Below the pieces are notes generated by a model. The model was not told the origin of the DNA. It saw only the letters and a list, made by a program, of their open reading frames with translations, and did no database searches. Below, in pieces: positions 2,097 to 54,511 of a DNA stretch of 57,800 nucleotides. The stretch covers positions 1 through 57,800 of the forward strand of contig CAJXZZ010000006.1 in NCBI GenBank assembly GCA_913065105.1. The letters run 5' to 3'. Numbering within the stretch: the first letter of the stretch is position 1; each line of letters opens with the position of its first letter. The DNA comes from an uncultured Gammaproteobacteria bacterium. Lineage in GTDB: Bacteria > Pseudomonadota > Gammaproteobacteria > SZUA-229. The position numbers and the translations under genes were made by a program.

Positions 2097-3407
2097 TTAA
2101 AAAGCCGCATCAAATCCGACCAGTACATAATTCTCACCTGTAAGGTGCCCTGTCCAGTACGCACCTGTTTTATCGACCGAATCGAGTAGATCCAGATTTA
2201 CTTCTATTACACCTTTCACATTCCGCATAAAGTAGTAGGAGGTTGATAGTGTTAGCGAATTGATATCGATGCCTTCATAAACAGTATCAGTGTTTTTCAT
2301 ATCGTTAGCATCTGCATAATTGTATAAAACTGAGTATACCCAGTGATCGCTATGGATGTAATCAAGACCAACAAAACTGCCGAACCAGCTGTACTTGGTG
2401 TTGACATCAATAAACTCATCCCACTCGTTTTGCAGCAATTGTGCAAACCAGTAGGTTTTATAGCCAGCTTTACCAGACAGGTCGACACCGTAAGAAATTT
2501 TGTCCGTGTCACGATCACCGCTCTCAGTGCCGGCAACTCCAGTGGCATTTTTCTGCGTGCCGGAATAACCGAATAAACCAAGATTCACGCCGGCAATATC
2601 ACCACCAATTCGACCGAATACTGCTTTGCCGCTGTTATTGTCAAACATGTGATCAGGGCGTTTATAACCGGGACTGTTAATCGTGTGATTTTCTGAGATA
2701 CCGTTACCGTTAACAAGGCCTAGCGATAGATCTACAGGGCCTGCAGTGTAACCAAAAATTGTTCCGCGATCATAGGTTAGACCGGCCATGCGATAAACCA
2801 TAAAATCCTGAAAAGTTAGTCGTGTTTCGCGCGGGAACATCAGATCTGAAACCTGGAACTGGCCAAGCATCAAGCTGATATCGGAGCCGAAGATATCATC
2901 ATGAGAGAACCAGGCATCTTCTACAATTACCGAACCATTATCACCTTTCTCTGCAAAGATGGCATAAAAATAGTAACTGATGTGATCGGATAAAGGTGCA
3001 CTTGATAGCAGTTTGATCAAGTAGGGTGACTGAAAATCGGTATCTGCAGAAATAGTGTCTCCGGTATCAACATCGATTGTCTCGGCTTCTCTGGCCTGCA
3101 CAAATGCCTGGGTGCGAAGTGCCAGGGGAACACTGTCTGGTAGAGCAAGCATATCATCGCCTGTATCCACCGTTGTATCTTTCCAGTTGGGTAAGCGGTA
3201 GTTATCACTAACGAATTGCTCACCAAATTCATTAAGCCTGGGGAAAGCAGCATGGCAGGCGACACAGCTCATATTGTATTTGCGAGCAAATACAGGCATG
3301 GCTTCGCTTTTAGTGGGTATTATCAAAACTGAAAAGATCAGTAAAAAGAAAAAAATAAATAAAATAACCAGACCGTTCTTACTGGCCTTAGAGGTTTGTG
3401 CATTCAT
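2097..3407 (-). CDS. Outer-membrane monoheme cytochrome-porin fusion (Cyc2-like architecture)
   Basis: A 436-residue protein with an N-terminal signal segment (hydrophobic 12-31, likely cleavage after SEA, residue 36) and one c-type heme site CVACH (48-52), followed by FPRLNEFGEQF. The remainder of about 370 residues alternates polar and aromatic residues like a transmembrane beta-barrel and ends in Phe (GFDAAF), the usual outer-membrane protein terminal signal. One heme plugged into a porin is the architecture of Cyc2-type iron oxidases and related porin-cytochromes, which move electrons across the outer membrane. The start ATG has AGGAG upstream. The gene stands alone behind an FNR-type box. 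Fe(II) oxidation or other extracellular electron transfer is inference; the heme site and barrel-like C-terminus are seen. Confidence 0.72.
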   Translation of the reverse strand: MNAQTSKASKNGLVILFIFFFLLIFSVLIIPTKSEAMPVFARKYNMSCVACHAAFPRLNEFGEQFVSDNYRLPNWKDTTVDTGDDMLALPDSVPLALRTQAFVQAREAETIDVDTGDTISADTDFQSPYLIKLLSSAPLSDHISYYFYAIFAEKGDNGSVIVEDAWFSHDDIFGSDISLMLGQFQVSDLMFPRETRLTFQDFMVYRMAGLTYDRGTIFGYTAGPVDLSLGLVNGNGISENHTINSPGYKRPDHMFDNNSGKAVFGRIGGDIAGVNLGLFGYSGTQKNATGVAGTESGDRDTDKISYGVDLSGKAGYKTYWFAQLLQNEWDEFIDVNTKYSWFGSFVGLDYIHSDHWVYSVLYNYADANDMKNTDTVYEGIDINSLTLSTSYYFMRNVKGVIEVNLDLLDSVDKTGAYWTGHLTGENYVLVGFDAAF

Positions 3408-3599: not shown

Positions 3600-3622
3600 A
3601 AAGGGGACAGAGTGTCTCCTTT
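3600..3622 (-). terminator. Hairpin carrying GGGGACAGA, possible terminator
   Basis: AAAGGGGACA (3600-3609) and TGTCTCCTTT (3613-3622) form a 10-position stem with one G-T-type mismatch and a 3-base loop. It begins ten bases past the stop codon of the DUF6172 gene on the minus strand. On that strand the right arm runs into TTTATTT, a weak U-rich tail. The same bases carry the GGGGACAGA motif seen at 1982, so this may be a repeat serving as a terminator. Confidence 0.45.
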
Positions 3623-4834: not shown

Positions 4835-4862
4835 TTCACTATTCGTTATTCACTTTTCACTG
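4835..4862. repeat. Degenerate heptamer tandem repeat, four units
   Basis: Four 7-bp units lie in a row: TTCACTA, TTCGTTA, TTCACTT, TTCACTG. The stop codon of the yajD-like gene (4850-4852) falls inside the array, so its last codons and stop are repeat-derived. A second four-unit array of the same family lies at 14968-14995, beside the prfB stop. Confidence 0.7.
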
Positions 4863-5251
4863 TCTTGACCACTGTCTTTATCGCCCATCATACTCTTCAA
4901 ATCAGCAAACGGATTAAAGGTGGCTCCGGGGGCTTTTGCACCATCGAGTGCTATGCCTTTGTTAAGTAGCTCTTCGGTATGGCGCTGGTGTTCGTTATCA
5001 TGACAATAAATACATAATAGCTCCCAGTTACTGCCATCTGACGGATTGTAGTCATGATCGTGGTTTTTATGATGCACGGTTAATTCCTGCAGATTACTAT
5101 TAACAAACTCTCTTGCGCATCGACCGCATATCCAGGGATACATTTTTAAAGCCTGGCCACGATAACTATGACCACGTTCTTCGATATCGCGTTTGGCTTT
5201 AGCAACGATGCCATCTAACCGTTGCTGTGATTGTGCTTTTTTATCCGTCAT
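4850..5251 (-). CDS. yajD: YajD-like HNH nuclease
   Basis: A 133-residue protein with a Cys pair CGRC (around 43-46), the HNH core HHKNHDHDYNPSDGSNW, and a second Cys pair CIYC followed by HDNEH. This is the zinc-stabilised beta-beta-alpha metal fold of the HNH endonuclease superfamily, and the protein matches YajD along its length. The substrate of YajD in the cell is not established. The C-terminus (SGQDSEK) is encoded within the heptamer repeat, so the tail length may vary between strains. The start ATG is followed by MTDKKAQSQQRLDGIVAKAKRD, as in relatives. Confidence 0.88.
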   Translation of the reverse strand: MTDKKAQSQQRLDGIVAKAKRDIEERGHSYRGQALKMYPWICGRCAREFVNSNLQELTVHHKNHDHDYNPSDGSNWELLCIYCHDNEHQRHTEELLNKGIALDGAKAPGATFNPFADLKSMMGDKDSGQDSEK

Positions 5252-29851: not shown

Positions 29852-30190
29852 TTAATGATTTTCAGAAACCATATTGATAGTATATTTTGGAATCTCGACA
29901 ACCAGGTCTTCATCACCGATGATGGTCTGACAGCTTAAACGCGAATCAGGATCAAGGCCCCAGGCTTTATCCAGCATGTCATCTTCGTCTTCGGTATTCT
30001 CATTTAATGATTCCATACCTTCGCGGATATAGACGTGGCAGGTAGTACACGCACAGGATTTCTCACAGGCGTGTTCTATTTCGACATGATTTTGTAATGC
30101 CACGTCACAGATCGTCTGACCTGGTTCTGCTTCGACAACCATGCCATCTGGACATAATTCTTCATGAGGTAAAATAATAATTTGTGGCAC
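29852..30190 (-). CDS. fdx: ISC system [2Fe-2S] ferredoxin, GTG start
   Basis: A 112-residue ferredoxin that supplies electrons for cluster assembly. Counting from the chosen start, the ligands fall at C42, C48, C51 and C87 (ACEKSCACTTCH and SRLSCQ), exactly the E. coli Fdx positions. The start is GTG at 30190 (PQIIILPHEELCPDG follows), with GGAG seven bases upstream. A longer frame reaching 30253 would run back into hscA and has no homology. It begins one base after the hscA stop region. Confidence 0.95.
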   Translation of the reverse strand: MPQIIILPHEELCPDGMVVEAEPGQTICDVALQNHVEIEHACEKSCACTTCHVYIREGMESLNENTEDEDDMLDKAWGLDPDSRLSCQTIIGDEDLVVEIPKYTINMVSENH

Positions 30191-30191
30191 T

Positions 30192-32084
30192 TTAAGACTC
30201 CTCTGCTTCAGAGTCTGAAGCGTATTCTTCAATTGAATGCCCTTGCATGGCATTTTTAATATTGGAATTCATGCGACGTGCAACGTATTCGTCACACACC
30301 ACCTCTAATTGTTTTATGCTCTGTTTAATCTGTTCTTTGTCATTCTGATCTTTAACATCAACCAGGGCCTGACGTGCAACCATGATGTTTGACCTTTCTT
30401 CTTGCGATAACAATTGCTCAGCATCAACCGCAAGGGCAGCATCTAATGCTTCGATCACACGTTCAGCATCAACCTGCTGTTCGCGTAAACTTCTCAAATG
30501 CATATCATCTTCTGCAAAATCGATGGATTCACGCAACATGCTTTCGATCTCTGCATCGCTCAGGCCGTAAGACGGCTTAACATCGATACTGGCTTCAACA
30601 CCGCTATTTTCTTCGCGCGCGCTAACGATCAACAGTCCGTCAGCATCGACCTGGAAGGTTACTCGGATACGTGCAGCACCGGCGACCTGCGGTGGAAAAC
30701 CACGTAACTCAAAGCGTGCCAGTGATCGACTATCGCTAACCAGTTCACGCTCACCCTGCAACACATGTACTGCCATCGCAGTCTGACCATCTTTGTAAGT
30801 AGTAAAGTCCTGTGCTTTGGCTACCGGGATAGCGGTATTACGATAAATGATTTTTTCAACCAGCCCGCCCATGGTCTCGATACCTAATGACAATGGAATG
30901 ACATCGAGTAATAACATCTCATCATCGGGTTTATTACCGGCCAGCACATCTGCCTGCAGGGCAGCACCTGTAGCAACGACTTTGTCCGGATCAATACTCG
31001 TCAGGAGCTCGCATTCAAAAAATTCAGCGACCATTTCTCTGACCAGCAATGTTCGTGTTGAACCACCTACCATGACAACTTCTTTAATGTCTGCTTTATC
31101 GATATCGGCATCTCGTAGTGCACGACGACACGACATCAATGTTCTTTTCACCAGCGGCGTTAACAATTCTTTTAACACAGAACGATCCAGCACACCCTGC
31201 CATTGACCGCCTTCGACATCGATATTGATTTCAATACTTTCTGCTTCAGCCAGCGCTTCCTTAGCAATGCGAGCCTGCTGCATGATCGAACGCTTGGTTG
31301 CAGCAGTGTCTGTATTAGATATATTGGCCTGAGCGATTATCCACTGCGCGATCTCGTAATCGAAATCATCACCGCCCAGTGAACTGTCACCGCCGGTGGC
31401 AAGCACTTCAAAAACACCTTTATTCAAACGCAATATCGATATATCAAAGGTACCGCCACCAAGATCATAAACGGCGATAACACCTTCGTTACCGGTATCC
31501 AGACCATAAGCAACGGCGGCAGCTGTCGGTTCGTTTAATAAACGCAGTACTTTTATATCAGCAAGTTTTGCTGCATCTTTCGTCGCCTGTCGCTGGGCAT
31601 CATCAAAATAAGCCGGCACCGTAATTACCGCGCCGTTTAATTCATCACCTAATGTTTCTACCGCACGGCGTTTAAGTGTTTTTAAAATCTCTGCAGAAAC
31701 CTCGATCGCACTGACATCGCCGGTACGGGTTTTAATCCTGGGCACTGTACTCTCAGTTTCAGCAAAATCGTATGAGTAATGTGCGTCTTTGCTAGCGATA
31801 TCTTCAATACCACGCCCCATGAAACGTTTTACAGAAACGATTGTGTTCAATGGGTCAGTGATACTAAATTGTTGCGCCTTCGCACCGACTGCCACACCAT
31901 CTTCGCCATAGTGAACGACAGACGGCAATAGATGCTGGCCATCAGGATCAGGTAGTGTGTTGACATCACCACTACGTACACTGGCAACCAGTGAATTAGT
32001 TGTACCTAAATCAATACCGACCGCAAGCCGATGTTGATGCGCGGTGGTTGACTCTCCAGGTTCTGCTATTTGTATAAGTGCCAT
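30192..32084 (-). CDS. hscA: Fe-S cluster transfer Hsp70 chaperone HscA
   Basis: A 630-residue Hsp70 homologue with the ATPase signatures [26 protein letters not shown] and [17 protein letters not shown], then a substrate-binding domain and helical lid. HscA binds the LPPVK motif of IscU (present in the IscU encoded here) and drives cluster transfer together with HscB. It follows hscB by 18 bp. The length is slightly above the E. coli protein, from the N-terminal extension [19 protein letters not shown]. Confidence 0.97.
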
Positions 32085-53548: not shown

Positions 53549-54511
53549 CTATATCAGCGCACCACCACAACTACTTCCCTGACCAGCGGTACAGCCATAA
53601 CAGTGATCCATAATAGCAATGTCGCTACCGGTTAAGTCGCTCTGCACAAGATCATTAATATGCATTTTGGTCGCAGAGGTCGCCAGTCCTGCAGGTAGCT
53701 CTAGCATCTGATTAAAATCACAATCATAGACATAACCTAACCAGTCAACGCTCAAAGTTGTACGACACATGACACCGGGAAGATTCTCTTTACTGTAAGA
53801 GCTTTTTAATAATTGCATATACTCATCAAACAAACCTTTTGATAACAGGGTGCTGCCAAAACGTTTGATCGGCATATTGGTAATCGTGTATAAGTTATTA
53901 AAAGAAATATCAAAGCGCTGCTTCAATTCTTTTTTATACGCCGGTTCCAGACTATTTTGTGCTGGCGGCAAGTTGATACCTTGCGGATTATAGACAAGGT
54001 TAAGCTGCAACTGCTGATCAATACCATAGCCGTATCGATTTAATAACTTCAGACCTTCGATACTCTGGTCAAACACACCTTTACCGCGCTGCGCATCGAC
54101 ATTCTCTTCCAGATAACATGGCATTGAGGCAACAACCTCCACCTTGTTTTCAGCTAAAAAAGCGGCGGTTCCCTCATAACCTTTTTCCAGCAGCACGGTT
54201 AGATTACAGCGATCAATAACATGCACACCCATATCAGTTGCCTGTTTAACCAGTGAAAAGAATTCGGGATTCATCTCAGGCGCACCACCGGTTAAGTCCA
54301 GTGTTTTAATGTTTTTTTGTTTTAAAAAATTAAGCACATCAGCAACCGTTTCTGCGGTCATTATTTCTTTACGTCGCGGACTAGCATCAACATGACAATG
54401 CAAACATTGTTGATTACATAAATAACCAAGATTGACCTGCAATGTTTCCAGATGTGCACGTTTTATCTGAGGGAAATCAGTCTTTACCAATAAATCAAAA
54501 GTATTTTTCAT
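53549..54511 (-). CDS. arsS: Radical SAM protein ArsS (arsenosugar biosynthesis)
   Basis: A 320-residue radical SAM enzyme with C32xxxC36xxC39 (LCNQQCLHCHVDASP) and the C-terminal Cys-rich region CYGCTAGQGSSCGGA, typical of the ArsS family. ArsS is proposed to transfer a 5-deoxyadenosyl or ribosyl group to dimethylarsenite in arsenosugar synthesis. It has DLTGGAPEMNPEF early in the barrel. It is second in the operon, after the flavoprotein. Without arsM in view, arsenic chemistry is inference from family. Confidence 0.87.
   Translation of the reverse strand: MKNTFDLLVKTDFPQIKRAHLETLQVNLGYLCNQQCLHCHVDASPRRKEIMTAETVADVLNFLKQKNIKTLDLTGGAPEMNPEFFSLVKQATDMGVHVIDRCNLTVLLEKGYEGTAAFLAENKVEVVASMPCYLEENVDAQRGKGVFDQSIEGLKLLNRYGYGIDQQLQLNLVYNPQGINLPPAQNSLEPAYKKELKQRFDISFNNLYTITNMPIKRFGSTLLSKGLFDEYMQLLKSSYSKENLPGVMCRTTLSVDWLGYVYDCDFNQMLELPAGLATSATKMHINDLVQSDLTGSDIAIMDHCYGCTAGQGSSCGGALI

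Follow-up and report, generated by a model that had tools for sequence, protein, structure and literature searches.

We found that the gammaproteobacterial DNA analysed here (a stretch of 57,800 nucleotides, hereafter the window) encodes a Cyc2-like porin-cytochrome that, judged by its sequence, sits in a distinct clade, set apart from the other Cyc2-like proteins that we sampled. Its carriers are for the most part bacteria that oxidize sulfur and fix carbon. Our preferred reading, to which we give a probability of about one half, is that this is a Cyc2-type porin-cytochrome of a distinct, usually solitary clade that acts as an electron inlet. In favour of this reading are the Cyc2 signature, the porin fold, an invariant heme site, the constraint on the barrel, the solitude of the gene, its link with RuBisCO and the acceptors present in the organism's own genome.

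The gene and its product

The window begins at a contig end, and the gene and its parts are placed in it as follows.

2097..3407, minus strand: coding sequence of the Cyc2-like porin-cytochrome, 436 aa (open reading frame and translation, 36 related loci, dN/dS)
3303..3407, minus strand: N-terminal segment, likely a signal, residues 1-35 (modelled hydrophobic helix; mean column conservation 0.34)
3183..3302, minus strand: cytochrome domain, residues 36-75, with the motifs AMPVFARKY and PRL (match to the Cyc2 consensus; alignment A1)
3252..3266, minus strand: heme-binding CVACH, residues 48-52 (sequence; invariance in alignment A1)
2100..3119, minus strand: predicted 16-strand porin barrel, residues 97-436 (AlphaFold2 model; matches to OmpC, OprO and OprP)
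2772..2855, minus strand: constriction-loop (L3) segment, residues 185-212 (highest conservation of any long segment; loop assigned by strand order)

The open reading frame starts with ATG, and its product has a single CXXCH (CVACH, residues 48-52) and a C-terminal Phe. The first structure model, made with the signal peptide included, shows a hydrophobic helix at residues 10-28, within the variable residues 1-35, and a signal peptide is likely on this model. The lone heme site and terminal Phe named in the initial annotation were thus recovered, and its signal segment is likely. The frame is real, and chance is excluded, because a search of genome_contigs retrieved 36 loci with relatives at 50-90% identity (best segment), the dN/dS between the window protein and three relatives is 0.06-0.09, i.e. 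the whole protein is under strong purifying selection, and the heme residues are invariant. The initial annotation had also proposed a profile search against Cyc2 and porin-cytochrome models. In Pfam, NCBIfam and the PDB sequences, the window protein has no match at E up to 10. The search of plasmids with the same protein gave matches that cover residues 32-74 only, in two Caballeronia records, and the named full-length relatives were therefore drawn from genome_contigs.

A Cyc2 heme domain on a porin-like barrel

Cyc2 proteins are described as having at least 365 aa and a CXXCH that is preceded by AxPxFAR[Q/K][T/Y], a motif termed unique to the family, and followed by PxL; their porin has 16 strands and resembles OprO/OprP (PMC8406198; this and the other papers are cited from excerpts). 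The window protein has 436 aa, and its heme site reads AMPVFARKY-NMS-CVACH-AAF-PRL, with AMPVFARKY just upstream of CVACH and PRL at residues 56-58; its 16-strand OprO/OprP-like porin is a prediction. We regard it as a variant within the Cyc2 family, relative to a sample outside which the named Cluster references lie. PxL is present in 44 of 44 clade proteins, none of which has a second CXXCH, and the strict upstream motif in 32 of the 44. The remaining 12 (L003, L005, L007, L008, L009, L017, L020, L027, L028, L136, L139 and L147) deviate mostly at its last two places, with forms such as FARTY, FSRKY and FARRY. Hence, Cyc2 surveys filtered by the strict motif would lose 12 of the 44 proteins. 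This set was selected by a pattern that demanded CXXCH and the preceding Arg and cannot test those residues; alignment A1, with rows chosen by homology and ignoring the motif, can, and C48, C51 and H52 are invariant in its 29 rows.

The AlphaFold2 model of the mature protein (pLDDT 75.8, pTM 0.77) has 16 strands of at least 8 residues and one of 3; the model with the signal peptide is weaker (pLDDT 68.8). The best matches in structure comparison are 16-strand porins: OmpC (Z 23.5), OprO (Z 23.0) and OprP (Z 22.7). The suggestion of a barrel-like remainder is thus borne out by prediction, and the motif, the single heme and the predicted 16-strand barrel together support the Cyc2-type architecture that had been proposed. 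The protein resembles the phosphate and diphosphate porins OprP and OprO in its predicted fold, but shares only 14-15% identity with them and has no Pfam porin match at E up to 10. OprP and OprO, moreover, are not known to have a heme domain.

Within the clade, mean conservation is 0.90 in segment 185-212 and 0.78 in the heme domain. The L3 residues M190, R193, E194, R196, D201 and R206 are invariant in 44 of 44 clade proteins, H421 in all 42 that have a letter there, and H169 is found in 41 of 44. Invariant basic residues include R98, R106, K132, R193, R196, R206 and R214; many acidic residues are invariant too. M190, H421 or H169 may, as a conjecture, serve as second heme ligand, and such proposals are weak because the heme domain is poorly modelled (pLDDT 42-51).

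A distinct clade

A quick maximum-likelihood tree of 79 rows placed the 40 clade rows on one side of a branch (SH-aLRT 99) and the 39 other Cyc2-like rows on the far side, with a clade stem of 1.78 substitutions per column. A second tree, with two further named plasmid proteins added, gave the same split, and none of the three named Cyc2-like proteins from plasmids grouped with the clade. As the program warned that long stems may meet falsely, we read no sister group of the clade from the tree. Its sample contains neither the Cyc2 of A. ferrooxidans, that of Mariprofundus PV-1 or Leptospirillum Cyt572, nor any proven iron oxidase, and for this reason Fe(II) oxidation or extracellular electron transfer by the clade is something that we infer.

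Clade membership required at least 49% BLAST identity to the window protein over more than 250 residues, which favours similar barrels. The other Cyc2 types match this protein far more weakly, the longest matches being at 23-24%; they are represented by 40 chosen regions, mostly the best-scoring of a profile list, and one plasmid. A few loci were treated apart. L035, a clade fragment of 228 aa, was grouped with the others by length and is outside the pair counts, the tree and the flank counts. The motif pattern missed L162, L165 and L191, which are in no count, and L133 and L134, which are only in the second tree. L188 was in the first tree and was dropped from the second as a long branch, and L036, which has an in-frame stop, was excluded from alignments.

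The hosts of the 36 loci include uncultivated Gammaproteobacteria, Chromatiales, Thiogranum, Thiohalobacter, Thiobacillus, Haliea and two Microbulbifer. At an identity of at least 57%, the gene is in 10 of 18 genomes of the same genus and in 7 of 31 of the same family beyond the genus, where many genomes are incomplete and some matches are fragments. Two near-complete congeners (G004 and G017) lack it, which counts against the inlet. In a class-level sample of 370 genomes, 74 have some Cyc2-like match and 17, including the window's own genome, have the clade gene (16 by identity and one, G220, by profile score only, with fragments in G209 and G086 uncounted). In a phylum-level sample of 397 genomes, a search with the clade profile (E no higher than 1e-20) retrieved two, the window's own and G428, which belongs to another class. 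The G428 relative has 52% identity over 376 residues. G428 thus carries a clade gene and, at a contig end, a second fragment (L197, G428:C103; L198, G428:C106), which points to transfer between classes.

The barrel of the clade is unusually constrained

We compared barrels at similar divergence of the heme domain. For pairs with a heme-domain identity of 0.7-0.8, mean barrel identity is 0.65 in the clade (359 pairs) and 0.41 in other types (67 pairs). The gap persists in the 50-60% and 60-70% heme-domain bands. With almost all clade rows drawn from the class survey, the clade mean is 0.62 (47 pairs). Against an artefact of the identity-based clade definition stand the weak matches of other types, the long gap in the tree and this repeat, which left the result. 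In sequence comparisons, where heme domains have diverged to the same degree, the barrel is thus better conserved in the clade than in other Cyc2 types, most of all in L3, unlike the low porin conservation reported for Cyc2 in the excerpts of PMC8406198.

Tentatively, we may be dealing with a functionally separate Cyc2 branch in which the pore, and not the heme domain, is specialised. Its members would then be stand-alone inlets with a selectivity for one reduced solute, which might be something other than free Fe(II), and would deliver electrons to the periplasmic cytochromes in general use in sulfur-oxidizing lithoautotrophs. We consider this possible, and the odds are against it.

The gene is solitary

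The initial annotation described a lone cytochrome, and this holds for the window, where no other open reading frame is a cytochrome gene. The remaining frames with a CXXCH encode an HNH endonuclease (4850-5251), a 2Fe-2S ferredoxin (29852-30253) and, by eye, a radical-SAM-like protein (53549-54511). Among the near neighbours of the gene, Pfam matches were obtained for DUF1513 (convergent), DUF6172, DUF4126, HNH, HbpS-like and DUF4124 proteins and an alpha/beta hydrolase.

Solitude extends to the clade. Of 25 clade loci, none has a CXXCH gene within 300 bp of the gene, as compared with 12 of 32 loci of other types (Fisher exact test, p 0.0005); within 3 kb, the counts are 2 of 25 and 13 of 32. 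They cover only loci with 3 kb available on either side of the gene and score neighbours by CXXCH, whether or not these are cytochromes. Of the 12 neighbours in other types, 11 share the strand of the gene. Other Cyc2-like proteins with an adjoining cytochrome (Ideonella, Caballeronia and A. ferrooxidans plasmids; L156, L161, L166, L168, L183 and L184) have a similar heme-domain signature and porin length. They differ in that a cytochrome or CXXCH gene lies within 100 bp, and within 60 bp in Ideonella (L134) and Caballeronia (L135); on the A. ferrooxidans plasmid (L133) the cytochrome starts about 500 bp downstream. Yet, solitude is consistent in the clade without being unique to it, since 20 of 32 loci of other types likewise have no such neighbour within 300 bp, and Acidithiobacillus is described as having cyc2 genes that stand alone (PMC10654088).

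Among full-flank clade loci, L139 is the only one with CXXCH frames within 1.5 kb; these are up to 1.3 kb away on the opposite strand (204 aa with two CXXCH, 101 aa with one). We considered a conserved neighbourhood and dropped the idea: clustering of the open reading frames of the 36 loci and the window gave no family in more than four loci apart from the gene itself. The four-locus cluster consists of antisense frames over the porin-cytochrome gene, and the three-locus clusters are, by eye, a P-type ATPase, an RND transporter and a protein without assignment. A response regulator and sensor kinase (by eye) adjoin the gene at L004:3918-5926 (same strand) and L022:3512-5591 (opposite strand). 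We set them aside as a clade-wide link, as they occur in these two loci only, and a regulatory role in part of the clade is possible.

The host genome and its other electron-transfer genes

The window's genome is 99.7% complete with 3.3% contamination. It encodes SoxB, SoxX, SoxA and two RuBisCO large subunits and, on this gene content, is that of a sulfur-oxidizing autotroph. It also encodes a cbb3 oxidase (CcoO and CcoP), a cytochrome-D1 protein and c-type cytochrome domains in 17 distinct open frames, and a profile of several Cyc2 types retrieved a single Cyc2-like gene in it. The genome search for cytochromes that had been suggested was thus productive: the periplasmic partner said to be encoded elsewhere has 17 possible candidates in these frames. 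Near the end of contig G000:C15, moreover, a DmsE-family decaheme cytochrome (L196:7762-8808) is directly followed by MtrB/PioB (L196:8849-11011), and an octaheme cytochrome of the tetrathionate-reductase family adjoins the pair. The genome thus has a further electron conduit of the outer membrane that is independent of the porin-cytochrome. An outer cytochrome next to MtrB is also possible, as the contig ends about 350 bases after MtrB. The view that redox life would not be obvious from the organism's other genes has to be abandoned, given SoxB, SoxXA, two RuBisCO, cbb3 and the decaheme with MtrB/PioB outside the window.

The MtrB/PioB of this genome is a different gene from that of the window. 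MtrAB, MtoAB and PioAB would resemble the window protein, by analogy, in carrying electrons across the outer membrane, and are described as a 26-strand barrel that houses a multiheme cytochrome as a protein of its own (PMC8406198). In contrast, the window protein is a single polypeptide with one heme and 16 predicted strands. Such complexes are recognized by an MtrB/PioB barrel (PF11854) with a separate decaheme partner; the window protein has no Pfam family, one CXXCH and no adjacent cytochrome in the window, and is not of this type.

The gene accompanies lithoautotrophy without depending on it

In the class sample, RuBisCO is encoded by all 17 clade genomes against 185 of 370 sample-wide (Fisher exact test, p 1e-5; the 17 genomes span 12 families, and this value ignores kinship and overstates their independence). 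Where another Cyc2 type is present, 46 of 57 genomes have RuBisCO, and where none is, 122 of 296 do. The clade does not clearly differ from the other Cyc2 types (Fisher exact test, p 0.06), so the RuBisCO link is not specific to it, which speaks against the inlet. So do carriers without RuBisCO: among the 12 genomes behind named loci, chosen to include likely heterotrophs, 9 encode RuBisCO, and those with the gene and no RuBisCO are both Microbulbifer and one Haliea. SoxB is over the cut-off in 13 of 15 class-level carriers scanned. Genomes of the same family that lack the gene are alike in both respects (RuBisCO in 11 of 11, SoxB over the cut-off in 10 of 11), a further point against our reading. 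The RuBisCO of the carriers, the genomes with RuBisCO and no gene and the RuBisCO-free Microbulbifer and Haliea indicate that the gene accompanies lithoautotrophy without depending on it.

These distributions bear on two other explanations. The first is that the heme is a structural plug or a redox gate of an uptake porin, with no respiratory electron flow. Microbulbifer and Haliea are known as genera of aerobic heterotrophs, and the gene in RuBisCO-free members fits this idea, as do the 25 testable clade loci without a co-encoded partner and a barrel under more constraint than in other Cyc2 types. However, the heme site is invariant, the whole protein is under strong purifying selection and c-type acceptors abound in the genome, and we find a plug or gate improbable.

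The second is that the conduit runs in reverse, as an overflow valve that passes electrons to outside acceptors or soluble shuttles when a sulfur oxidizer runs out of O2 or nitrate. The RuBisCO-free carriers are compatible with such a valve, and so is the DmsE/MtrA-type decaheme with MtrB/PioB in the window's genome, a type that serves electron release in Shewanella. RuBisCO in 17 of 17 class-sample carriers nevertheless fits electron uptake better, and iron oxidation is the activity of the three Cyc2 proteins that have been characterised (PMC8406198). We regard outward flow as unlikely.

How an electron inlet would work

According to the preferred reading, the protein would, after export, form a 16-strand barrel in the outer membrane, its mono-heme domain of about 40 residues lying at the periplasmic mouth. 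The barrel fold is a prediction of this work, and for the orientation we follow the porin convention, for which PMC8406198 gives the argument. The pore would then admit a small reduced solute, dissolved Fe(II) being the likeliest, to be positioned by the conserved L3. The electron of this solute would go to the c-heme, the second axial ligand of which could be M190 of L3 or else H421. The heme would pass the electron to shared soluble periplasmic cytochromes, with no dedicated co-encoded partner. Onward flow would reach the cbb3 oxidase or nitrite reduction, and RuBisCO would use the energy for carbon fixation.

By analogy, the donor is probably dissolved Fe(II) and the direction inward. Fe(II) is favoured because three Cyc2 proteins, from three clusters, oxidize it (PMC8406198) and a sulfur-oxidizing Sulfuriferula with a cyc2 gene, of this or another clade, grew on it (PMC12285272). 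The Cyc2 homologue of Ca. Tenderia, a biocathode gammaproteobacterium, likewise of this or another clade, shows higher expression at a less favourable electrode potential (PMC5371394). The same literature cautions that Cyc2 function is less certain away from characterised proteins (PMC8406198).

Invariant Arg and Lys do not obviously suit a cation, which tells against dissolved Fe(II), though many acidic residues are invariant too. The conserved pore might instead admit a donor with a negative charge, such as a sulfur oxyanion or iron complexed by an organic acid, from which the heme would collect the electron. The likeness to the anion porins OprP and OprO, the basic residues of the barrel and L3 and the SoxB of 13 in 15 scanned class-level carriers would suit this. 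But SoxB is equally common in same-family genomes without the gene, the invariant acidic residues apply here too, and one-electron chemistry on sulfur oxyanions is unusual. Canonical Cyc2, furthermore, shares the OprO/OprP resemblance (PMC8406198). An anionic donor thus seems doubtful to us.

A published mutant study of Thiobacillus denitrificans (PMC3753534) was considered as a knock-out test of an orthologue and rejected as evidence either way. In the excerpts of that study, most CXXCH mutants had near wild-type Fe(II) oxidation with nitrate, and its BLASTP gave no cyc2 homologue in the genome. The 34 primers of that study that we compared with the Thiobacillus locus L027 all had at least 4 mismatches and did not bracket the gene (a comparison made without a shuffle control).

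Relation to known Cyc2 and implications

Like the Cyc2 of A. ferrooxidans and Mariprofundus PV-1 and Leptospirillum Cyt572, the window protein has a single CXXCH, both motifs, more than 365 aa and a predicted 16-strand OprO/OprP-like porin. It differs in belonging to a clade with its own stem of 1.78, in a sample without those three proteins, and in being encoded by a solitary gene, unlike A. ferrooxidans cyc2, which is in the rus operon. Published work already describes Cyc2-like genes in sulfur-oxidizing Gammaproteobacteria and takes those of Clusters 2 and 3 as a sign of iron oxidation (PMC11427306, PMC12383625). For gammaproteobacterial lucinid symbionts, Cyc2 iron oxidation is said to lack experimental demonstration, and the overlap of iron and sulfur oxidizers is described as unexplained (PMC12442345). 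In the literature consulted, we found no description of a solitary clade with a conserved pore, and its members may well be in supplementary Cyc2 trees.

The gene cyc2 is a marker for iron oxidation in metagenomes. If a separate branch selects another solute, much of what is annotated as 'cyc2' in sulfur-oxidizing lithoautotrophs would be no sign of iron oxidation. The clade is clearly bounded and conserved, and named strains of Microbulbifer (such as the cultured Microbulbifer sp. YPW16) and Haliea carry it, so that the question can be tested directly.

Other observations

Three proteins of the window's genome (L068, L074 and L077) have a cytochrome c motif followed by a propeller-like remainder; L074 has the Pfam cytochrome D1 domain, and L068 and L077 are alike by eye. 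In the window, GGGGACAG and its reverse complement CTGTCCCC form an inverted pair between two convergent genes (1982-1989 and 2061-2068). GGGGACAG occurs again about 200 bases upstream of the cytochrome gene (3603-3610), and these copies are possibly a small repeat element.
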